Shown here: piece after piece, positions 7,596-45,506 of the stretch
How the letters are laid out: the number at the start of each line of letters is the position of its first letter
Numbering within the stretch: the first letter of the stretch is position 1
IMG/VR virus record: IMGVR_UViG_3300035070_002886
Coordinates: 1-48,747 of that record
Length of the DNA: 48,747 nt
Origin: a virus
Reading direction: 5' to 3' (one strand)
Translations under genes and position numbers: made by a program
Notes under the pieces: model-generated
Databases searched by the model: none
Told to the model about the DNA's origin: nothing
What the model saw: only the letters and a program-made list of their open reading frames with translations

Positions 7596-9899
7596 CTAAA
7601 TGAAATTATTTTTAATTGTTTTAAATTTAACTGACTTTCTACCGCTCCAGTCTGACTCAACGCGACTGATCGCACCTAACTCCACTAATTTATTTAGTGA
7701 TGTTTTTACATCCGACTCTGAAAACTTCTTGGTTTTCTTTTTGATTACACTTGGTGATAGTCCGTCTTGCACATCACAGATTTGAACCAATCTAGCAGCT
7801 AGAGCGTCCCCCCTCTCCTCGTTGTCTGCGTCCTTGTTGTCAGCCATAGCTTGTAAGCACATGCCTGTCTTAGTGTTAATGTCAGACTTAATTAGAGCGA
7901 ATGCATACATCAAGTCTTCTTCAGTTATGATGCTGGTTTCTGCAGCCATAATGGATGCAATAACAGATGTCATTTGAAAGGCCCTAGCCCAAACAGGTTG
8001 CATGATTGGGTTTGACTTTTGAGCCCTAGAATCGAACCAAGCGCCGATCTTTTTAGATAGCTCTATGGCTGAGTCTGAAGCTGTCATTACTATTGGTTCG
8101 CCCCAAAACTCCAAGCCGTAATCTTCACGATAGGTCATGGTTTTATCTTGCGCCCTGCCTCGCTGAACGATGTTGTTGAACCTTCCGTGTATCGACTCTG
8201 GTATTGAGTGTCTTTTTATTGCACCAAATCCATAAGCTTTTGCTTTCGGGAAGTCCTCAAACTCACGCACTAACAACGTTCGCCCCATCAAGCCACTGGA
8301 CAGCGTATCTTCACTCACCATTCCGTCTAACTTACCTGGTGTCGATGTCGCGTAAAGGTTCATGAAAGGGTTGGTTATGCCACCGGACAAGTAGGACTCT
8401 TTGTTTTTAAGCCACTGGATTTTATTCTCTATAATAAATTCCTTGCCGATCTCAACGTCCTCTTTCTGCTTCTCAAGAATGGCGATTGACTTGTCTATAT
8501 GAGCCCTAAGCGGTTCAACCTCTTTGGCCCTAAGCGTTAATAGCCTTTCTGTTGATAGGTTTAGTATTGCCCCCTCTATTTGTTGTAGGTATGAGTTTGC
8601 GTTTTTATTCTGCATAGCCCCAAATATTTTATGCGCTTCATCTATTGCGTAGAATGCACACTGGTGGTCAATGATACTTTTGATCATGTCCTTATCGGAT
8701 GCCATCTCTGGGTAAAGCGCACAACCGTATCCGGCTTTTATCAATAATGATTTTGCCACTTGGTAAGGGTTATCCTTACCAGAGCCAGAAGCGGCTATAC
8801 CCATCACGATAATGCTCACCTTGGCACCGTCTGGGGTTAGATACATTCTGTTCATTGCTGAAGATACAGACCATAGCGCGGCACCTACAGCAATGCTCGG
8901 TCTATCACGGTAAGCTGTCTCATTCATGTAGCGAACAATGTCACCAACTAAACCATGAGGGTTAAGCACATCAATATGATCTGTGCATAACTCATCTTCT
9001 GGCGTATGGTCTGCAGGTATAATAACCTCCGTTCCACCTCTAGCTGGCAGCTTGTAACCATTCTCTAGCGCTTTTTTAATTAAGGTTGCAATGGTTACAC
9101 GGCTAGGGTTCTTGCCAAACGACTCCCATTTAACCAACATTTCAGCTTCATCAAACTTTGATGATTTAGAGGCCCACGCTTCCCATAGTGGGTAAGCATT
9201 TGGATCGGTGTCATGGATGGCCATGCCTATTTCAATGAAGTCGTCATAATGATCATCATTGTTTGGTATGTGCGCCACAACCTCAGTTAAATCACCATCA
9301 AAATCAGACTCAAAATCAGACTCACAAATCACCTTTTCAATGATTGCCAGTAGTTCAACCGGTGCATCATCAAGGTTAGTTAAATCATCATCATAACAAT
9401 GGTCAATCGTGTAGTATTTGCCGCTGTTATGCAGTGAGCCACCAGCAACAACAAAGCCTCCTTTGTGCTTGAAATCAATACCTGGATATTCTTTCATGCT
9501 TCCACGAACATCAAGATCTGCAGGTTTGTTGTAGTACAGGTGGAAGCCGCCGCCGCCAGTTTTAACACCAACGCCACACTCTTTTAGTTGTGGCACCTTT
9601 TCGCATAGTTTATCGAACGATTCAAAACCGCCGTTTTTTGGGTCCACATCCACAACCAAATGGTGGTCTTCCAATAACCAACCGAAGCCAGTGCACAGCA
9701 TGTTAAAATTATGATAGTTCTCAATAAGCTCAAATTGATTGCTCATTCCTATCATTATTTGCCAGTTGGAGTTTTGCGGGTGTTTACCTGCCATTTTGCA
9801 CTCAGGATTACCACACCCGCACTTACCATTTTCTATAGGATGCAAGTTGACTAGCGACAGTCCTGCATCATGGTATTTTTTTGCGCTCTCGTATATCAT
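7596..9899 (-). CDS. PrimPol / PriCT-2 / DUF3987 primase-helicase
   Basis: 767 aa and the main replication protein. The N-terminal bifunctional primase-polymerase domain starts with a cysteine cluster (CGCGNPEC) and has the catalytic acidic motif VVDVDPKNGG near residue 100. It is followed by a PriCT-2-like linker (about 205-290). The C-terminal half is DUF3987-like, with a P-loop GIAASGSGKDNPY and FYAIDEAHKIFG as Walker B. Such fusions prime and unwind at phage or plasmid origins. The gene faces away from the iteron region at 10.2-10.5 kb, which is its likely substrate. Confidence 0.85.
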   Translation of the reverse strand: MIYESAKKYHDAGLSLVNLHPIENGKCGCGNPECKMAGKHPQNSNWQIMIGMSNQFELIENYHNFNMLCTGFGWLLEDHHLVVDVDPKNGGFESFDKLCEKVPQLKECGVGVKTGGGGFHLYYNKPADLDVRGSMKEYPGIDFKHKGGFVVAGGSLHNSGKYYTIDHCYDDDLTNLDDAPVELLAIIEKVICESDFESDFDGDLTEVVAHIPNNDDHYDDFIEIGMAIHDTDPNAYPLWEAWASKSSKFDEAEMLVKWESFGKNPSRVTIATLIKKALENGYKLPARGGTEVIIPADHTPEDELCTDHIDVLNPHGLVGDIVRYMNETAYRDRPSIAVGAALWSVSSAMNRMYLTPDGAKVSIIVMGIAASGSGKDNPYQVAKSLLIKAGYGCALYPEMASDKDMIKSIIDHQCAFYAIDEAHKIFGAMQNKNANSYLQQIEGAILNLSTERLLTLRAKEVEPLRAHIDKSIAILEKQKEDVEIGKEFIIENKIQWLKNKESYLSGGITNPFMNLYATSTPGKLDGMVSEDTLSSGLMGRTLLVREFEDFPKAKAYGFGAIKRHSIPESIHGRFNNIVQRGRAQDKTMTYREDYGLEFWGEPIVMTASDSAIELSKKIGAWFDSRAQKSNPIMQPVWARAFQMTSVIASIMAAETSIITEEDLMYAFALIKSDINTKTGMCLQAMADNKDADNEERGDALAARLVQICDVQDGLSPSVIKKKTKKFSESDVKTSLNKLVELGAISRVESDWSGRKSVKFKTIKNNFI

Positions 9900-26103: not shown

Positions 26104-27720
26104 ATGGCCTCGAAGTATACGATCAGCACGGTGTTCCGTGGCATTGATAATATGACAAAGCCTGTCCGAAAAATGACAGGCTCCATCAAAGACCTAACGG
26201 TATCAATAAAAAAATCAGCAAAAGAATTTAACCAGCTTCCACTTACTGAGAAATTTGAAAGTGCTGAGTTAGGTCTCCGCAAAATTGACGCAGCAACCTC
26301 TAAAGTAACTGAATCCATGTTTGGCGTTGGTAAAAAAGCCGCACAAGGTATCGCAGCATTAAGCACAGCTTTAGTGGTCGGTGCTGGAGCCGTTAACCAA
26401 ATGAAACTTGAGTCTGATAATATGACTCGATCTATGGGTGCTAGCGTAGAAACTGTGGAAGCGGTCACAAATGGCATTAAAGGCATTGGGTTAAATGCGG
26501 AGAATGTCACAGATTTGTATGAGGAAATGAATAATAAACTTGGTGAGTCGGCAGGTATCGAAGAAATAACCGCCGTTACCGAATCGCTTGGTATCCTTGG
26601 CTTGCAGTTTAATGAGATAAAAAAACTATCACCAGACGAACAATTCAAAGCCATCACTGACGCAGCGCTCAAGATGGAAGACGCCACACAAGCAGCCGCA
26701 GCCGCTGATATATTGATGGGCGGCGAAGCCAACAAAATCATTTCCACACTTCGCCTGCAAGGTAAGTCGATGGAAGACATCACCAAAAACTACCAAATGC
26801 TAAACTTCAGAACCGACCAATCACGCAAGGGCGCGGAAGATATGGCGAAAGCCCAATCTAAAACCGCCAAGATAATTGGATCTCTCACACAAGAGGTATC
26901 TGGCTTGATTGGTAAAGCGTTGGCACCAATGATTGACAAGTTCAACGATTGGATGATTAACAATAAAGAGTTGATCAGCCAGAACCTAGATAAACTATTT
27001 AACTCTATTGGTAATTCCATTGGCGACGTAGGTCAGCACATGGAAACGCTGATCGGTTGGATTGGTGATTTGGGTGCCAACTTTAGTGAGTTTGTGAAGT
27101 GGGCGAAGTGGGTTGGTGGATTTATAGTGGCGCTAACTGGATTATCAGTAGTGCTAAAAACTATAACCGTACTTGTTACGGCGTTTAACTTAGCAATGGC
27201 AGCTAACCCTATAGTGTGGGTAATTGCTGGTATCACGGCCGCTGTTGTTGGTCTAGGTTTCGCAGTTAAATACATATACGACAACTGGGGAAATATTAGC
27301 GATTGGTTTAGTAACATGTGGGACTCAATTAAAACCACTTTTAACATCGGTGTGCAAATGGTTAAGTCAATGTTCGATTGGTCGCCTATGGAGTTAATAA
27401 GCGCTCAATGGGATGGCGTTACCAATTACTTTAGCAATCTGTTTGGCGGTATCGCTTCTCTTTATGAGTCAACCGTTGGGAGCGTTATGGGCAAAGTCAA
27501 CGCAGCTAAAGACTTCTTTGGTTTCGGTGGTGATGACGAAGACATCAAGCGTTCAATGAGCATTGATGCTAATGCAGTGGTTACACCTCAAGAGAGAATT
27601 AGCCGATCTATCAGCGAGAATAAAGAAACGTTTGATATTAATGTGACTGGTCAGAATGGCGCTCAGGTATCAAGCCCTATGCAATCACCAAGGTTGAATC
27701 TGATAAACACTGGAAATTAA
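26104..27720 (+). CDS. Tail tape measure protein
   Basis: 538 aa, directly after the chaperone pair. The N-terminal region is coiled-coil-like (MASKYTISTVFRGIDNMTKP ...), the middle has long helices, and residues about 335-400 are hydrophobic (VALTGLSVVLKTITVLVTAF, then WVIAGITAAVVGLGFAV), as usual for tape measures that enter the host membrane. Its length sets the tail length. It is short for a myovirus, implying a fairly short tail. Confidence 0.88.
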   Translation: MASKYTISTVFRGIDNMTKPVRKMTGSIKDLTVSIKKSAKEFNQLPLTEKFESAELGLRKIDAATSKVTESMFGVGKKAAQGIAALSTALVVGAGAVNQMKLESDNMTRSMGASVETVEAVTNGIKGIGLNAENVTDLYEEMNNKLGESAGIEEITAVTESLGILGLQFNEIKKLSPDEQFKAITDAALKMEDATQAAAAADILMGGEANKIISTLRLQGKSMEDITKNYQMLNFRTDQSRKGAEDMAKAQSKTAKIIGSLTQEVSGLIGKALAPMIDKFNDWMINNKELISQNLDKLFNSIGNSIGDVGQHMETLIGWIGDLGANFSEFVKWAKWVGGFIVALTGLSVVLKTITVLVTAFNLAMAANPIVWVIAGITAAVVGLGFAVKYIYDNWGNISDWFSNMWDSIKTTFNIGVQMVKSMFDWSPMELISAQWDGVTNYFSNLFGGIASLYESTVGSVMGKVNAAKDFFGFGGDDEDIKRSMSIDANAVVTPQERISRSISENKETFDINVTGQNGAQVSSPMQSPRLNLINTGN

Positions 27721-27760
27721 TCGAAAATTTCAGTCACTCAATCTGAGTAACCGTAAAACA

Positions 27761-27782
27761 AAGAGGCTTCGGCCTCTTTTTT
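27761..27782 (+). terminator. Rho-independent terminator after the tape measure
   Basis: AAGAGGC-TTCG-GCCTCTT tetraloop hairpin (27761-27778) followed by TTTT. It isolates the accessory cassette at 27893 from the tail operon. Confidence 0.92.
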
Positions 27783-27824
27783 ATTGCCTGTCGAAAATAA
27801 ATTAAAATAACTGTCCAACTTTAC

Positions 27825-27853
27825 TAGACACAAGTCCAGCATATTGATACTAT
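27825..27853 (+). promoter_or_regulatory. Promoter of the small-protein cassette
   Basis: TAGACA (27825-27830), 17-base spacer, TACTAT (27848-27853). Five bases later comes the shared leader element, exactly as at the 932-960 promoter. Confidence 0.75.
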
Positions 27854-27858
27854 AGCTC

Positions 27859-27872
27859 TATCGAAACGAAAC
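27859..27872 (+). promoter_or_regulatory. Shared leader element TATCGAAACGAAAC, copy 2
   Basis: Identical to 913-926 (minus strand), with the same 5-base gap to the -10 and similar flanks (GCT in the gap, AC two bases after). The conserved register suggests a common regulator or RNA signal. Confidence 0.65.
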
Positions 27873-27892
27873 ATACAAACGGAATCAACATC

Positions 27893-28099
27893 ATGGAAAT
27901 TATCAACAAAACATTCAAAATTCAAAAGCGCGACGAAATGGGCGTTGCAAAAAAAGTTTACACGGTTTTTGTTTACGCTGTTAATGATGCAGTTCGCTGC
28001 GTAAAGGTTGTAAATGGAAAGAAAACAGCAAAATGCGAAAACTTTTCAATTAATGATTTTAACTCTGGAATTCGACTGGGTTCGGTAGTGGAGGCTTAA
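27893..28099 (+). CDS. Hypothetical accessory protein, 68 aa
   Basis: First gene of the small-protein cassette, 20 bases after the leader element. Lys-rich, beta-strand-rich (FKIQKRDEMGVAKKVYTVFV). No family is recognised. It is followed at one base by a zinc-ribbon-like gene. The promoter type suggests early expression, unlike the surrounding tail genes. Confidence 0.6.
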   Translation: MEIINKTFKIQKRDEMGVAKKVYTVFVYAVNDAVRCVKVVNGKKTAKCENFSINDFNSGIRLGSVVEA

Positions 28100-28100
28100 A

Positions 28101-28319
28101 TTGAGCAAGATTGCAAAGGTTAGGGTTTGCGCATCCTGTGAATGGATTTTTAGAGGATGTTTAGATTGCCCAAAATGCGGATTTGGTAGCTACGGGGCTA
28201 GATTCGTATACGGGCCAAAGGCTTACGAGTATGAAAAGACTCAAAAGCCTTGGTTAGATAAAAAAATCACAGCTTACGCATTGAAAATATCAAAGGAGAT
28301 TGAAATTGGAAAAGTATAA
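28101..28319 (+). CDS. Small zinc-ribbon-like protein, 72 aa
   Basis: TTG start after GTGGAGG. Two cysteine pairs (VCASCEW and CLDCPKCGFG) predict a zinc ribbon, followed by a basic/aromatic C-terminus. Zinc ribbons of this size often bind nucleic acid or RNA polymerase, but no specific family is recognised. Its end overlaps the next gene. Confidence 0.6.
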   Translation: MSKIAKVRVCASCEWIFRGCLDCPKCGFGSYGARFVYGPKAYEYEKTQKPWLDKKITAYALKISKEIEIGKV

Positions 28320-28449
28320 CGGCTTACCAAAAGCAACTTACTACCGCCGACTTAAAGAGTGGACACTAACTCTTTACGACAAGGACGGTAACGAGTATCA
28401 CGCAAGCCCTAAACACGTAATGAAAAAAGGACAAAGCAATGAAAAATAA
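28306..28449 (+). CDS. Very small basic protein, 47 aa
   Basis: TTG at 28306, eight bases after GGAG. MEKYNGLPKATYYRRLKEWT is Arg/Lys/Tyr-rich and could form a short helix-turn-helix-like unit (LPKATYYRRLKEW). It overlaps both neighbours, like the rest of the cassette. No family is recognised. Confidence 0.5.
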   Translation: MEKYNGLPKATYYRRLKEWTLTLYDKDGNEYHASPKHVMKKGQSNEK

Positions 28450-28654
28450 AATCACATTTAAAAAAATCGCAATGCAAGCTGTAATCACATTCCTTTTATT
28501 GGTGCCAGTGCCTTTCATATTTGAAGAATCTGCATTATTTACTGGTGTGTACCTTGCATTCTTCGTTATTGCTCTAGGTTTAGCGGCTAGATTGATATTT
28601 GGTCAGCAGTCGGTATTAATTCAAACTGTGGTTGTGGAGGCAGACGACAAATGA
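28439..28654 (+). CDS. Small membrane protein, two predicted segments, 71 aa
   Basis: Basic N-terminus (MKNKITFKKIAMQ), then hydrophobic segments AVITFLLLVPVPFIF and GVYLAFFVIALGLAA, then a short polar tail. It would sit in the inner membrane with two helices. Small two-helix proteins can be holins, superinfection-exclusion or host-membrane modifiers. The cassette's early-type promoter argues against a holin. Confidence 0.6.
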   Translation: MKNKITFKKIAMQAVITFLLLVPVPFIFEESALFTGVYLAFFVIALGLAARLIFGQQSVLIQTVVVEADDK

Positions 28655-28752
28655 AAACCCATAACAGAAATTACATAAGCCCTTGGATCGTCGGGCTAAC
28701 GACGCCGGTTATTGTTTTGGTTTTGATGTTGGTGGGGTGGGTTTATGAATAA
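28651..28752 (+). CDS. Tiny membrane peptide, 33 aa
   Basis: ATG overlaps the previous stop (ATGA), with GGAGG upstream. One hydrophobic segment (TTPVIVLVLMLVGWVY) follows a short polar N-terminus. Overlapping starts and stops on both sides support translation. Function unknown. Confidence 0.5.
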   Translation: MKTHNRNYISPWIVGLTTPVIVLVLMLVGWVYE

Positions 28753-28834
28753 GCACCAAATCATAGCGTTAATAGTGGTCGCCATAGCTTGGCTAATAAC
28801 AATTAACTTTGTACCTTGGCATGGAGTTAGCTAA
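28745..28834 (+). CDS. Tiny membrane peptide, 29 aa
   Basis: Starts at an ATG inside the end of the previous gene, after GGTGGGG. MNKHQIIALIVVAIAWLITI is a single transmembrane helix. Its last base is the first base of the next ATG (TAATG). Confidence 0.45.
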   Translation: MNKHQIIALIVVAIAWLITINFVPWHGVS

Positions 28835-28929
28835 TGATATCTAAAAAGAAATTCTTTGCCATCGTGCTAACAGGCGTGGCGCTTTGGTCTTATGTTGTTT
28901 ATCGTGCGGTTAGTGAGGGGTGGATGTGA
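28834..28929 (+). CDS. Tiny membrane peptide, 31 aa
   Basis: Third in a row of single-helix peptides: MISKKKFFAIVLTGVALWSY. A Lys-rich start suggests N-in topology. The stop touches the next ATG. Confidence 0.45.
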   Translation: MISKKKFFAIVLTGVALWSYVVYRAVSEGWM

Positions 28930-29327
28930 TGGGAAAGCCTAATGTAGAGGTTAGATTAAAGCTATCAGAGTACGAATCCATATTGAATGAGATTAAGTCG
29001 CTTAAGGATGAAAACTCAAAGTTGAAAGGTGGCGCTCCAGTGGTGGAAAGAATCGTGTTTAATCACATCTCTGTCGGTAATTTCTTACACCAAAGCCCAG
29101 TGAGCAACGCTATAGCAGCTAATAAACTAATAGAGGTTGGAGGTCGATTTGTTGGGGAGGCTTCCGACCGTGGCGTTGAATTTGAAGGGGTTGACGTCCT
29201 AATTGACTCGCTAAGTCGACAGGTAGATAAAATAGCGGTAATAAACAACTCTGAGCGATTGGCAACAAACAAGCTTAAAGAAGTTATGAATCGCAATCTA
29301 TGGCGTAGAATTTTAAACAAGCAATAG
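28929..29327 (+). CDS. Hypothetical protein with N-terminal coiled coil, 132 aa
   Basis: ATG at 28929 with GAGGGG nine bases upstream; an in-frame GTG earlier overlaps the previous peptide. Residues 10-35 form a short coiled coil (LSEYESILNEIKSLKDENSK). The rest is mixed. It is the last gene of the cassette, before a terminator. No family is recognised. Confidence 0.6.
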   Translation: MGKPNVEVRLKLSEYESILNEIKSLKDENSKLKGGAPVVERIVFNHISVGNFLHQSPVSNAIAANKLIEVGGRFVGEASDRGVEFEGVDVLIDSLSRQVDKIAVINNSERLATNKLKEVMNRNLWRRILNKQ

Positions 29328-29340
29328 CCAATAAAACCCT

Positions 29341-29368
29341 AACCCCTCACCAGAGGGGTTTTCCTTTC
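29341..29368 (+). terminator. Rho-independent terminator closing the cassette
   Basis: AACCCCTC-ACCA-GAGGGGTT (29341-29360) followed by TTCCTTTC. The stem is identical in sequence to the one at 23413-23432. Confidence 0.85.
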
Positions 29369-29369
29369 A

Positions 29370-29378
29370 TGCTACAAT
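29370..29378 (+). promoter_or_regulatory. Extended -10 promoter for the gpN-like gene
   Basis: TGC-TACAAT right after the terminator, with no clear -35. It would restart transcription of the baseplate genes. Confidence 0.4.
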
Positions 29379-29412: not shown

Positions 29413-30663
29413 ATGGCATGGCAAGATAGGTTAGTACCATGCACCTACACCTCACCAAGTGGCGCAGAATTTACGCTGCAATATGAGGATGTAAGGCGCA
29501 AGATTAAAAAGAAAACAACCGTATTTGAGTTTGTCTCAAGCGAAGATGTGTATGTGCAGGATAACTTTGCTGGTGCGAAAACTATCCCAATGACGATTTA
29601 TTTCTCAGGGGAAGACCACGACACGCAAGCAAATGAGTTTTTCGAAGCGCTATCAGAGCAAGGGGCAGGAAAGCTACAGCACCCAATCTACGGGCTGTTA
29701 ACGGTTAACGCTACTGATGATATAGAGCAGGTCGATAGATTGAAAACTGGTGCTAACCAGAGCGCTTTCACTATCACTTTCATTGAGACAATTACCGACC
29801 TATATCCAAGCGCACAGACAAACCGCAATGAGTCAGCGCAAGCGGCAAGCACTAACTTTGATAATGTGAAAAGTGAAGAGTTTGCCGATGGGATTAACCT
29901 GGAGTCTGTCGCTGAAGAACAATCGCTGATTAATGAGATCAATGATTTTGTTGGCACTGTTGAAGAAGAGCTAAAACCGCTAGTTGAAGGCGTCGCGGAT
30001 GCTGAAGAGTTTATAAATGATGTGTCCAACTCAATCACTAACGGAATTGATACGCTAATCGGCACGCCGCTTACACTGGCTTTTCAATGTACGCAGTTAG
30101 TTAAATCAGCTACCAACACAGCAACATTGATAAGCGCCAAGCTTGACGCTTATGGTGATTTGCTTGATGACATTATTGGACCCGATAACACAACCACCAC
30201 ACCGACATACAACAACGTCGGTCAAAACTCAGTACAAACACAAGATCTGTTTGCATCAACCAACGTTTCTGCAACGGCTGATAGCATTCTGGCAACTGAT
30301 TTTGAAACGCGAGATGAAGCGCTAACCGCAGCTATATCGATTCAAGATTCATTCTTTGAATACGTAGAGTGGAAAGAGCGCAATTATGCTTCAGTGTCTA
30401 TTGAAGATGAGGGCGCAGGTTATGAGGCGCTACTTGACCACGTAACAAAGACTGTTGATAGTGTAATTGACTCAGCTTCGACACTACAGCGTTACAGAAA
30501 TGTGGTACTAGAGCGAGACATGCTAGTGCTAGATTTTGCTTATCAGTATTTTGGAACCAGTGATAGCGATACAGTGGAAAGGGTTATTTTGCTAAACGGT
30601 TTGGATAACTCGGATATTTGGACGATACCTAAAGGGCGCTTGATGCGTTATTTAGTACAATAA
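29413..30663 (+). CDS. DNA circularisation/tail protein, Mu gpN-like
   Basis: 416 aa. The N-terminal DNA_circ_N-type domain (about 1-140) shows RLVPCTYTSPSGAEFTLQYE followed later by TIYFSGEDHDTQANEFFEAL and KLQHPIYGLL. In Mu, gpN is a baseplate/tail hub component, and the circularisation name is historical (phage SfV/Mu). It lies between tape measure and gp44-like genes as in Mu, apart from inserted accessory genes. Confidence 0.85.
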   Translation: MAWQDRLVPCTYTSPSGAEFTLQYEDVRRKIKKKTTVFEFVSSEDVYVQDNFAGAKTIPMTIYFSGEDHDTQANEFFEALSEQGAGKLQHPIYGLLTVNATDDIEQVDRLKTGANQSAFTITFIETITDLYPSAQTNRNESAQAASTNFDNVKSEEFADGINLESVAEEQSLINEINDFVGTVEEELKPLVEGVADAEEFINDVSNSITNGIDTLIGTPLTLAFQCTQLVKSATNTATLISAKLDAYGDLLDDIIGPDNTTTTPTYNNVGQNSVQTQDLFASTNVSATADSILATDFETRDEALTAAISIQDSFFEYVEWKERNYASVSIEDEGAGYEALLDHVTKTVDSVIDSASTLQRYRNVVLERDMLVLDFAYQYFGTSDSDTVERVILLNGLDNSDIWTIPKGRLMRYLVQ

Positions 30664-30686: not shown

Positions 30687-31403
30687 ATGAAATACATGGG
30701 AAGCAAAGCAAGAATAGCAAAGCATATTTTGCCAATTATTTTAAAAAACCGTAAAGAGGGTCAGTGTTACGTTGAGCCATTTGTCGGTGGCGCAAATATG
30801 ATTGATAAAGTTGACGGGTGGCGTATTGGTGCGGATAGTAACGAACATTTGATTTTAGCTTTAAGTATGATTAGAGATAACCCAGAGGTGATACCAAGTA
30901 ACTCGAGTGAATATACAAAAGAAATGCGACAAGTGGCAATTAAACAAGACTCAATGGATCCGGTGGATTGCCTAATGTATTTTGCTTGTTCATTTGCTGC
31001 CAGATTTAAAAACACATGGGCTAAAGGCAATAAATATGACGACTTTGTGAGAGCTGCAAGAAGTAGCGCGATGAAGCAATCGCCAAAGTTAAATGGAGTT
31101 AAGCTGATGCACTCGAGGTATGATGATTTATCAATACCGCCAAAAAGTATTATTTATTGCGATCCGCCATACGCAAACAAATCAGGCTATGGTGCTATGT
31201 TTTGCAGCGATACATTCTGGGATTGGTGCAGAGCGAGAACAAAAGAAGGACACCATGTGTTTGTAAGTGAATACAATGCCCCAGATGATTTTGTTTGCGT
31301 GTGGCATCATGACCTAAAGGCGCTATCATCTCGGGATGGCAAGCCAAGAAAGGCAACGGAAAAGCTATTTATTCACAAGTCGCAGTATGAGGACAAGCAA
31401 TGA
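30687..31403 (+). CDS. D12-class DNA adenine methyltransferase
   Basis: 238 aa. It shows the FxGxxN-type start MKYMGSKARIAKHILP, EPFVGGANMIDKV (SAM binding) and catalytic DPPY in SIIYCDPPYANKSGYG. It methylates adenine N6, which protects phage DNA from restriction or resets Dam-type control. It is inserted between two baseplate genes and overlaps the gp44-like start by 4 bases. Its leader (ACAGGACA ... GAAAGATGAAA) resembles that of the 33339 gene. Confidence 0.88.
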   Translation: MKYMGSKARIAKHILPIILKNRKEGQCYVEPFVGGANMIDKVDGWRIGADSNEHLILALSMIRDNPEVIPSNSSEYTKEMRQVAIKQDSMDPVDCLMYFACSFAARFKNTWAKGNKYDDFVRAARSSAMKQSPKLNGVKLMHSRYDDLSIPPKSIIYCDPPYANKSGYGAMFCSDTFWDWCRARTKEGHHVFVSEYNAPDDFVCVWHHDLKALSSRDGKPRKATEKLFIHKSQYEDKQ

Positions 31404-43500: not shown

Positions 43501-44154
43501 CTAATCTATCTTAACGCCAAACGCACTAACACCATTAACCCAAACCCTAGTTTCAATCACGCTATACCCATAATACGCCGCTTGCATATCCTCAAGCGGC
43601 AGGGATTGGCGAGTATCTGACCATAAACAAAATGGCTTAGCATAACCAAAGCCACCTTTCTTCCATGAATAACGAGCGCAAAGTGTTTCGGCTCCGTTGG
43701 TGATCAAGACTTCTATCATGGGTTCATATCGATACGTTACCTTCCACTCTGGAAGTTCAAACTTATCCATTGTTGTGGCCGATTGGTTGTATCGCAAATA
43801 AGTATCACCACCTTTTACGATGGATCCGCTATACGGTTGCTGCGTGATTGTGTTGATGCCTTCGCCTATGAAGATGGGAAGGGTCGGCTGTTGTGGCACT
43901 GGAGTGGGATCGGTAGGGGTGACAACTGGCACTGATGGCGTTAGCTCTACAGTTGGCAGCTCCACAATAGGTAGCTCTATAGTAGGCGCATCTGCTTGCG
44001 GAACATCCACAGCTGGAACTTCAACATGTGGCGTTGCTTGCGCTAACTCAACTTCACCTTTATAGCTCTGCGTTTCAGATTTGCAACCAACTAGACCTGC
44101 TGCTATGATTAGACCTATCGCGGTTGCCTGTCGCGTTTGTTTTATATTTTTCAT
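43501..44154 (-). CDS. Lipoprotein with Pro-rich stalk, 217 aa
   Basis: Signal peptide with lipobox LVGC (Cys24), then a Pro/Val/Glu/Thr-rich stalk (about 40-95: repeated EVP, DVP, ELP and TPV units), then a compact C-terminal domain (about 95-217) with two or three cysteines. It is expected in the outer membrane inner leaflet. Phage lipoproteins of this kind can be superinfection-exclusion factors (Cor/Llp-like) or outer-membrane spanins; its length is large for a spanin. No family is recognised. Confidence 0.68.
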   Translation of the reverse strand: MKNIKQTRQATAIGLIIAAGLVGCKSETQSYKGEVELAQATPHVEVPAVDVPQADAPTIELPIVELPTVELTPSVPVVTPTDPTPVPQQPTLPIFIGEGINTITQQPYSGSIVKGGDTYLRYNQSATTMDKFELPEWKVTYRYEPMIEVLITNGAETLCARYSWKKGGFGYAKPFCLWSDTRQSLPLEDMQAAYYGYSVIETRVWVNGVSAFGVKID

Positions 44155-44190
44155 TGTTACATCCTGTTGTTAATTTGATAGTAGTTTGGA

Positions 44191-44216
44191 AGCCCCTTTG
44201 TCGAGGGGCTTTTTTG
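44191..44216 (+). terminator. Terminator oriented antisense to the lysis operon
   Basis: AGCCCCT/AGGGGCT (44191-44197 with 44204-44210) followed by TTTTTT in the plus direction only. The only nearby plus transcripts would be antisense to the lipoprotein gene. Confidence 0.7.
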
Positions 44217-44222
44217 TGGGTG

Positions 44223-44351
44223 TTATCCGAAACAAATGTTATTGCCTACAATCATAAAAGTAATAGCAAGCATGGCTGTCGGGCTTGTCTTTTGAGTTAG
44301 TACAAATGCACCTGCAATATAAATTATTAGACCAATAATATTCGCATCCAT
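44223..44351 (-). CDS. Small membrane protein, 42 aa
   Basis: ATG at 44351 shares its first base with the upstream stop. Two hydrophobic segments (IIGLIIYIAGAFVLT and AMLAITFMIVGNNI) with a short polar turn between them. In a lysis operon this fits a small holin or antiholin. No family is recognised. Confidence 0.58.
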   Translation of the reverse strand: MDANIIGLIIYIAGAFVLTQKTSPTAMLAITFMIVGNNICFG

Positions 44352-44860
44352 CACCTAACCCCCTTAATGCTCATTTGCTTTTCAGCACTTCCACGGCTTG
44401 ACCCTAACCAGTACGTCACGCCCGCAGCCATAAATCCAGACACTTGACCTGCCATAAAGACAAGTATGTCTTTGTTTTCAGTTGGAATTGCGTATTTCAT
44501 CAATCCATAAGCCATAGCGCTAAATAGTAAAAACATTAGCAGTGGTAATAACCAAGTCATCCAATGACCTTTGTGTTGCTTTCTAGCGTCCTGCGTGTCT
44601 ACTCGCTGGTTGGCTAGCTCTGCGTTTTGCAACTCCAACTTCTTAACAATAAAATCATTGTTCGCCTGTTTAAGTTTCAATAGTTGATCTGGTGTTGCAC
44701 CATTCACAGCCTTTTCAACCAAATCAATATTGTCCGTTTCTACGCCTGTTAGCTCCTTACTGATAATGCGAAGCGCTGTAGCTGGCAACGTAGCGCCACC
44801 CGACACAATCGCACCGACAATATCAGGCGCGTAACCTGCTATCTTTTTTAGCCATTCCAT
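44351..44860 (-). CDS. 3-TM-type holin/holin-like protein
   Basis: 169 aa from ATG 44860 (GGAGAG eight bases upstream); a GTG start ten codons earlier is also open. It begins MEWLKKIAGYAPDIVGAIVS, a weakly hydrophobic helix, then a charged helix (about 55-100), then two strong membrane segments (WMTWLLPLLMFLLFSAMAYG and ILVFMAGQVSGFMAAGVTYWL). This is the layout of the 3TM holin family first described in gene-transfer agents. The likely job is to release the endolysin. Confidence 0.72.
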   Translation of the reverse strand: MEWLKKIAGYAPDIVGAIVSGGATLPATALRIISKELTGVETDNIDLVEKAVNGATPDQLLKLKQANNDFIVKKLELQNAELANQRVDTQDARKQHKGHWMTWLLPLLMFLLFSAMAYGLMKYAIPTENKDILVFMAGQVSGFMAAGVTYWLGSSRGSAEKQMSIKGVR

Positions 44861-45042
44861 GTGGTCGCTCTCCATGTGATAACTTGGCACACACCGATAA
44901 CCACCGCGCCCGCTGCCATAATGTATGGTGTATATTCCGCAGGCACAAACTGAGGATAGAAAACCATGGTGGAAGCCAATACACCGCTGATTAAGTTAGC
45001 GTAGGTGGAGGCTCGTTTTAGGAGCTCTTTGTTTAGTTGCAT
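44848..45042 (-). CDS. Two-helix holin candidate, 64 aa
   Basis: Two hydrophobic segments (LISGVLASTMVFYPQFVPAE region and YIMAAGAVVIGVCQVI) with a basic N-terminus (MQLNKELLKRASTYANLISG). It overlaps the endolysin gene upstream and the 3TM gene downstream. Its size and context match small class II holins or holin partners. Confidence 0.62.
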   Translation of the reverse strand: MQLNKELLKRASTYANLISGVLASTMVFYPQFVPAEYTPYIMAAGAVVIGVCQVITWRATTWNG

Positions 45043-45506
45043 GTCAGTAAATCTCCAAGCTTTTTGTAAAATTTAACCGCGTCATTTTCACGATATAGAT
45101 AAACTCGCTTGCCGCTTTCGGTGTAGCACAACCAAACCAGGCGATTAGGGCGTTTATCAATATGAATGAGAGGTGTGTTTGTATCAAAGTAAATACCAAT
45201 TCCTCCTATGGCTGGAATTTGCTCTGCCGTCAACATAGCTGCAATCATTCGTCCGATGCTTGATACGTGCAAATCAGTGGCGTCTGACAGCCGTGTTTTC
45301 CCTTTGGTGCTATGACGACTCCCACTATCATCATGACGCACATGGGCGCCATACAGTGAGCTAGGCGTCATTGGTATTCCAGATTCATGTCTGAGTGCAA
45401 ATACACAATCTGTAAATAGATGTGCATCCATGTGATCGAGCGTACCCGCTGGCCATTCGTGCGGCTTCATGTTGCTAGGCCACATTGTTAATTCTGATGC
45501 TTTCAT
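45033..45506 (-). CDS. Endolysin, peptidase M15-like
   Basis: 157 aa. It shows the zinc-peptidase pattern of M15A-type enzymes: SRHSTKGKTRLSDATDLHV gives a His and an Asp ligand, and GIGIYFDTNTPLIHIDKR gives the final His. These enzymes cut peptidoglycan peptide cross-links. There is no signal peptide, so it would need a holin for release, and two candidates follow directly. Its start overlaps the stop of the small membrane protein upstream. Confidence 0.8.
   Translation of the reverse strand: MKASELTMWPSNMKPHEWPAGTLDHMDAHLFTDCVFALRHESGIPMTPSSLYGAHVRHDDSGSRHSTKGKTRLSDATDLHVSSIGRMIAAMLTAEQIPAIGGIGIYFDTNTPLIHIDKRPNRLVWLCYTESGKRVYLYRENDAVKFYKKLGDLLTCN

Follow-up and report, generated by a model that had tools for sequence, protein, structure and literature searches.

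A gene-exchange slot between the tape-measure and gpN genes of Vibrio phages, and a candidate superinfection-exclusion protein that co-varies with a tape-measure transmembrane hairpin

What are eight very small, overlapping ORFs doing between the gene for the tail tape-measure protein (TMP) and a gpN-like gene of a phage? The window (the whole stretch of DNA analysed, 48,747 nt) is a single virus record (IMGVR_UViG_3300035070_002886) with a 77-bp terminal direct repeat, and the original prediction, which took the eight ORFs as one coupled cassette, had suggested membrane remodelling, superinfection exclusion or a toxin-like system. All eight frames (g1 to g8, Table 1) are present on the plus strand at 27893–29327, bracketed by terminator-like hairpins as predicted, and are joined by ATGA, TAATGA or short overlaps, with a Shine-Dalgarno-like stretch before most of the eight starts. 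The plus-strand ORF chain spans 1434 of the 1435 nt, compared with 258 on the reverse strand, while 500 dinucleotide shuffles average 269 and never exceed 1027, so this tiling exceeds chance by far.

Table 1. Features of the TMP–gpN interval and its flanks in the window
Feature	Coordinates	Strand	Evidence
TMP, tail tape-measure protein, 538 aa	26104..27720	+	ORF; relatives' orthologues 59–85% identical, same place; MAG7 orthologue annotated tail tape measure
TMP transmembrane hairpin, residues 337–393, beta-type allele in window	27112..27282	+	segment alignment, DNA identity
Terminator-like hairpin 3' of TMP	27760..27779	+	hairpin scan
Promoter/leader common to left-arm operon and other Vibrio phages	27778..27892	+	-35/-10-like 27825–27853; ATCGAAACGAAAC at 27860
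g1, 68 aa, first gene after early-type leader	27893..28099	+	ORF; no match in phage tblastn
g2, 72 aa, TTG start, CxxC...CxxC protein	28101..28319	+	ORF; 28122–28267 DNA resembles two Escherichia phages
g3, 47 aa basic peptide, TTG start, early-operon type	28306..28449	+	75–90% identical copies elsewhere
g4, 71 aa, two-TM membrane protein, constant core	28439..28654	+	clade-wide presence, dN/dS, co-variation with TMP TM segment
g5, 33 aa, single-TM peptide, one backbone group only	28651..28752	+	88–91% identical in 6 relatives
g6, 29 aa, single-TM peptide, 89-bp insertion	28745..28834	+	junction comparison
g7, 31 aa, single-TM peptide, constant core, left border of cargo slot	28834..28929	+	tblastn; cargo joints; low pS
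g8, 132 aa cargo gene, N-terminal heptad-like repeat	28929..29327	+	no phage match; unrelated genes replace g8 in relatives
Terminator-like hairpin closing slot	29341..29360	+	hairpin scan; relatives compared
Extended -10-like TGCTACAAT 5' of gpN	29370..29378	+	kept in most relatives
gpN-like DNA circulation / baseplate hub protein, right flank	29413..30663	+	relatives annotated DNA circulation (IPR009826)

A search with the surrounding 5 kb retrieved 27 Vibrio phages with the same TMP–gpN neighbourhood, and 25 loci formed the comparison set (20 GenBank loci were fetched; the Nahant collection dominates). Across these relatives the interval varies from 0.65 to 2.15 kb and differs in gene content; only g4 and g7 are constant, being found in every clade locus with a complete interval, while the other genes are swapped, absent or unique. 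In distant Mu-like phages (31–37% gpN identity) TMP mostly abuts gpN directly, and one such phage, like one 57% relative, has a short interval without g4 or g7. Sequence comparison shows that slot genes are gained or lost at joints where the stop of the upstream ORF overlaps the start of the downstream ORF; g6 represents 89 bp inserted into the ATGA overlap by which g5 and g7 are joined in the relatives, and its derivation from g7 or g5 was rejected, as 7–14% of shuffled scores reach the observed one. When sought in close relatives, g4, g5 and g7 are intact, as the original prediction required, and g5 shows very low synonymous divergence there. A tblastn search of 50,697 phage records gave no match to g6 at a cutoff of E 10, or to g1 and g8 at E 0.1. 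No relative was found among the genome contigs searched for prophage copies, and a plasmid search likewise gave no match. With a terminator and a predicted promoter of its own, and with genes extra to related gene orders, the region from the TMP gene to gpN is by these comparisons a moron-like gene-exchange slot of a Vibrio phage clade.

Several further genes were observed in the slots of relatives. L016 and L027 share a gene of 91–95 aa between g4 and g7; the g7 joined to it is of type II in L016 but of type I in L027, showing recombination at that joint. A peptide of 45–49 aa with CxCGC...DYC motifs (KQCKCGCGRTFLGT...) recurs directly 5' of g4 in L003, L006, L011, L015, L018 and L028, and could be another mobile mini-gene. 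L020 and L021 carry DUF723-type or similar genes of ~300 aa at the start of the interval before g4; these perhaps encode homing-endonuclease-like proteins, by which exchange could be driven. In the record of phage 1.030.O (L009, 1–1633) the TMP is split into two ORFs (frameshift or sequencing error).

The left end of the slot carries a leader whose two blocks (27778–27803 and 27848–27879) repeat, inverted and in the same register, at 1007–906, as had been predicted for an element in common with the early operon. This second terminator-promoter leader copy lies on the minus strand ahead of the left-arm gene at 504–887, and further copies, present in L004, L022, L023 and L024, include ones in early regions of other, unrelated Vibrio phages. 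Copies of g3 (75–90% identical) are found in the replication/early regions of the unrelated Vibrio phages L022, L023 and L024 and also in L004, and g1 to g3 accompany the early-operon leader. The leader repeat is real, and we infer early expression from the leader together with a weak promoter match (9/12; 3 found versus 4.3 expected by chance). A terminator hairpin with an early promoter that recurs at several loci, twice in the window and again in other Vibrio phages, is the arrangement described for PeSL cassettes; the mosaic gene pattern fits PeSL-like shuffling between leader copies, among which no recombinants were observed.

The second constant gene, g7, encodes a peptide of 27–34 aa with one TM helix across the clade. 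In tblastn with the 31-residue sequence against the 50,697 phage records, exactly 27 records were matched, all of this clade and all at this place. It is annotated in only 3 of the 20 GenBank loci fetched, which agrees with the expectation that small membrane genes here would mostly be missed by annotation. Directly 3' of the g7 stop in 22 loci lie cargo genes of 19 unrelated families, starting from -4 to +2 nt relative to the stop, and two loci are empty; L055 adds a further family, a methyltransferase behind g7. A DNA methyltransferase is also encoded in the window at 30687–31403, between gpN and gpP, whereas in L055 it starts at 9509 behind g7, the same cargo thus occupying two slots. The two methyltransferase copies are identical at 155/180 positions from the ATG versus 24/80 before it, and the phosphoesterase of MAG7 and its copy in phage 1.003 at 150/180 versus 17/80, so that in both comparable foreign cargo genes similarity begins at the ATG. 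These joints mark the stop codon of g7 as a fixed border on the left side of the cargo position. A Shine-Dalgarno for the cargo gene can be provided by the closing codons of g7 (GAGGGGTGG), and both g4 and g7 start with ATGNNNNCTAA-like sequences in which the ORF before them terminates in a different frame.

Within backbone groups the DNA of g7 is nearly invariant (pS ~0.07 versus ~0.45 in gpN), while between groups pN and pS are nearly the same (0.35 and 0.32). Strong selection on the peptide was rejected on the latter ground, and the two values together indicate conservation at the DNA level, which by itself is no proof of peptide function. RNA structure as the cause was also rejected, as none of 9 predicted pairs is compensatory. 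An integron-like site was considered; g7 has no RNA fold with compensatory changes, and no integrase was noticed among the window ORFs of at least 90 aa. Near-invariance within groups is best explained, on these substitution patterns, by repeated recombination or a DNA-level constraint.

The first constant gene, g4, encodes a protein of 53–78 aa with two hydrophobic helices across the clade, as judged by hydropathy and helix pattern. This pattern fits a small phage-encoded membrane protein, the structure model being poor (pLDDT 66, alignment of 5 sequences). The mean protein difference of g4 is 61% versus 14% for gpN, and dN/dS values of 0.10–0.27 indicate that it is under purifying selection within types.

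The TMP of these phages contains a transmembrane hairpin that is exchanged as a ~153-bp block inside an otherwise similar gene and occurs as about five alleles in the clade. Between TMPs with different alleles, DNA identity of the segment is 0.51–0.62, compared with 0.90–0.95 upstream for most pairs and mostly 0.75–0.96 downstream. The distance between g4 proteins tracks the distance between TMPs, and the signal was located in one part of TMP by scanning 10 TMP and 5 gpN windows, after which the hydrophobic segment was put to a fresh test by 20,000 permutations and by one locus examined later. The Mantel correlation between g4 and the TMP segment is 0.596, a value reached by 0/20,000 permutations, also when stratified by backbone group, and the partial correlation given the rest of TMP is 0.58. 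Correlations of g4 elsewhere are 0.11 for TMP upstream of the segment, 0.20 for TMP between the segment and g4, and 0.13 for gpN.

In terms of types, the alpha segment is paired with g4 A and B, beta with C, gamma with D and E, and delta with F, while the outlier L033 has a pair of its own. This table is consistent in 24 of the 25 loci (typing by sequence identity), the one clear mismatch being the window itself, which combines a beta segment with an A-type g4; A-type g4 is thus found with both alpha and beta segments. Of the 204 pairs whose TMP segments differ, just 2 have the same type of g4, and the window is a member of each. Mapped on the gpN tree, the TMP segment changes 12 times (12.6 with random labels), g4 changes 15 times, and the two taken together also need 15 changes; since the combined count is only 15, almost every segment switch was accompanied by a g4 switch, and relatedness is not the explanation of the match. 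For L055 the TMP was examined once the rule had been formed, and g4 type B is there combined with an alpha segment as predicted, a single out-of-sample case. Within the 25 loci, g4 alleles are shown by sequence comparison to switch together with the TMP transmembrane hairpin and not with the rest of TMP or gpN, and g4 is probably a partner of this membrane segment. The co-variation is the new result here, and it lies partly outside the segment on which the original prediction, now partly supported, had been made.

The best reading of g4 is superinfection exclusion. According to this model, g4 would sit in the inner membrane as a hairpin with both ends cytoplasmic and would bind a TMP membrane segment of matching type. 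It would most likely be made soon after infection, because in this phage the slot lies behind a terminator and has an early-type leader of its own. If another phage then arrived with that same segment, its TMP would be unable to open its DNA channel. That the exchange slot with g4 serves exclusion specific for TMP type is a proposal which, in our judgement, has about an even chance of being correct. The broader version is somewhat more tentative: a self-recognition pair of a lytic clade, in which the TMP hairpin (key) and g4 (lock) diversify in about five matched types, each phage excluding its own TMP type, with the 31-codon ORF beside g4 as a fixed docking border. Against exclusion, g4 has no significant match to an exclusion protein in Pfam, PHROGs, NCBIfam or PADLOC, the window is mismatched with A-type g4 occurring beside both segments, and the clade seems lytic (its member MAG7 is reported as lytic and without an integrase; PMC10179652), while the best-known TMP-targeting exclusion proteins are prophage-borne.

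A further point against exclusion is that the same matching would be predicted if g4 were a dedicated partner or chaperone of its own TMP, shielding or orienting the hairpin in tail assembly or aiding its release at injection. This main rival agrees as well with the constant presence of g4, its intactness in all loci and its gene order beside TMP. It is nevertheless rather unlikely, because terminator-like hairpins and swapped genes stand, in most loci, between the TMP operon and g4, which would be odd if g4 and TMP had to be made together, and because the related Mu-like tails (31–37% gpN identity) have no g4 at this place; the mismatch in the window would also be costly for a chaperone. Improbable, by comparison, is that the TMP segment and g4 have both adapted to some third component, for example one host inner-membrane protein used in DNA entry. 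Segment types do recur across phages, and HK97-type entry is tied to an inner-membrane protein and TMP, going by the title of a study cited in PMC10883804, but hosts are mixed within each allele class, and more than one class is represented among the phages of V. lentus, V. splendidus and F13 strains.

Slightly less probable again is a second holin or holin regulator, with g5 to g7 as accessory peptides. A row of small TM genes would suit such a role, and in size and two-helix hairpin topology g4 is presumably like class II holins. It differs from them in lacking a meaningful family score, the best among 19 g4 members being that of a single one (E 0.018 to Phage_holin_3_6), which does not place g4 in a holin family, and its co-variation with the TMP segment would be unexpected and without reason in a holin. 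The probable lysis genes of the window lie elsewhere, at 43501–45506 on the minus strand, where a lipoprotein, a C-terminal two-helix protein (holin-like by eye) and an endolysin-like protein without a Pfam match are encoded.

Mere co-transfer of a long DNA block carrying both the segment and g4 has still less in its favour: the two are ~0.5–2 kb apart in a region of frequent recombination, but the TMP sequence between them, although physically closer to g4, co-varies far less (0.20 vs 0.60), and the intervening genes differ. In L003 and L007 this C-terminal stretch of TMP is 96% identical, yet the TMP segment and g4 both differ. The single membrane-remodelling or toxin-like system of the original prediction is very improbable, as tight coupling of the eight frames is outweighed by the absence or replacement of g1 to g3, g5, g6 and g8 in relatives. 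Type I toxin, defence and holin families were rejected for the slot genes, the family libraries giving no convincing match; of the functions first suggested, exclusion is the best reading for g4, whereas the toxin-type reading found no match.

The passage of TMP across the inner membrane and its recognition by exclusion proteins are poorly known. Natural matched pairs, in which a TMP segment of 50–60 residues and a membrane protein of 53–78 aa change together in otherwise similar phages, point to contact and supply ready-made swaps for testing it. If the exclusion reading is true, a lytic phage group would sort itself into exclusion types. The slot also shows tiny overlapping genes accumulating one ORF at a time, among them g7, which annotation overlooks though every member carries it.

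Exclusion by HK97 gp15 is escaped by exchange of the tail tube and TMP genes, and that by Ltp of TP-J34 is overcome by TMP changes (PMC10883804). Like these, g4 is a small accessory protein; gp15 is predicted to be located in the inner membrane, and the specificity of these known proteins is determined by the tail tube/TMP genes (PMC10883804). Unlike them, g4 has no known-family match in the libraries searched, belongs to a lytic clade, is present in every member, and has several allele types that change together with a single short segment of TMP. The PeSL cassettes of T4-like phages, as far as they are outlined where PMC4503421 cites Arbiol 2010 and Comeau 2014, have a terminator hairpin and an early-type promoter at the borders of swapped genes, common to operons and phages as here; by the same outline the PeSL borders are non-coding repeats, whereas there is one tail-region slot here, with short ORFs (g4 and g7) and start/stop joints as inner borders. 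Finally, g7 is similar to the start-associated sequences of cluster K mycobacteriophages (PMC3203893), which are conserved just 5' of the starts of unrelated genes and have a possible role in translation initiation; those are 13-bp repeats in many copies, while g7 is a single ORF of 81–96 nt, and the Shine-Dalgarno of the cargo gene lies at its 3' end.
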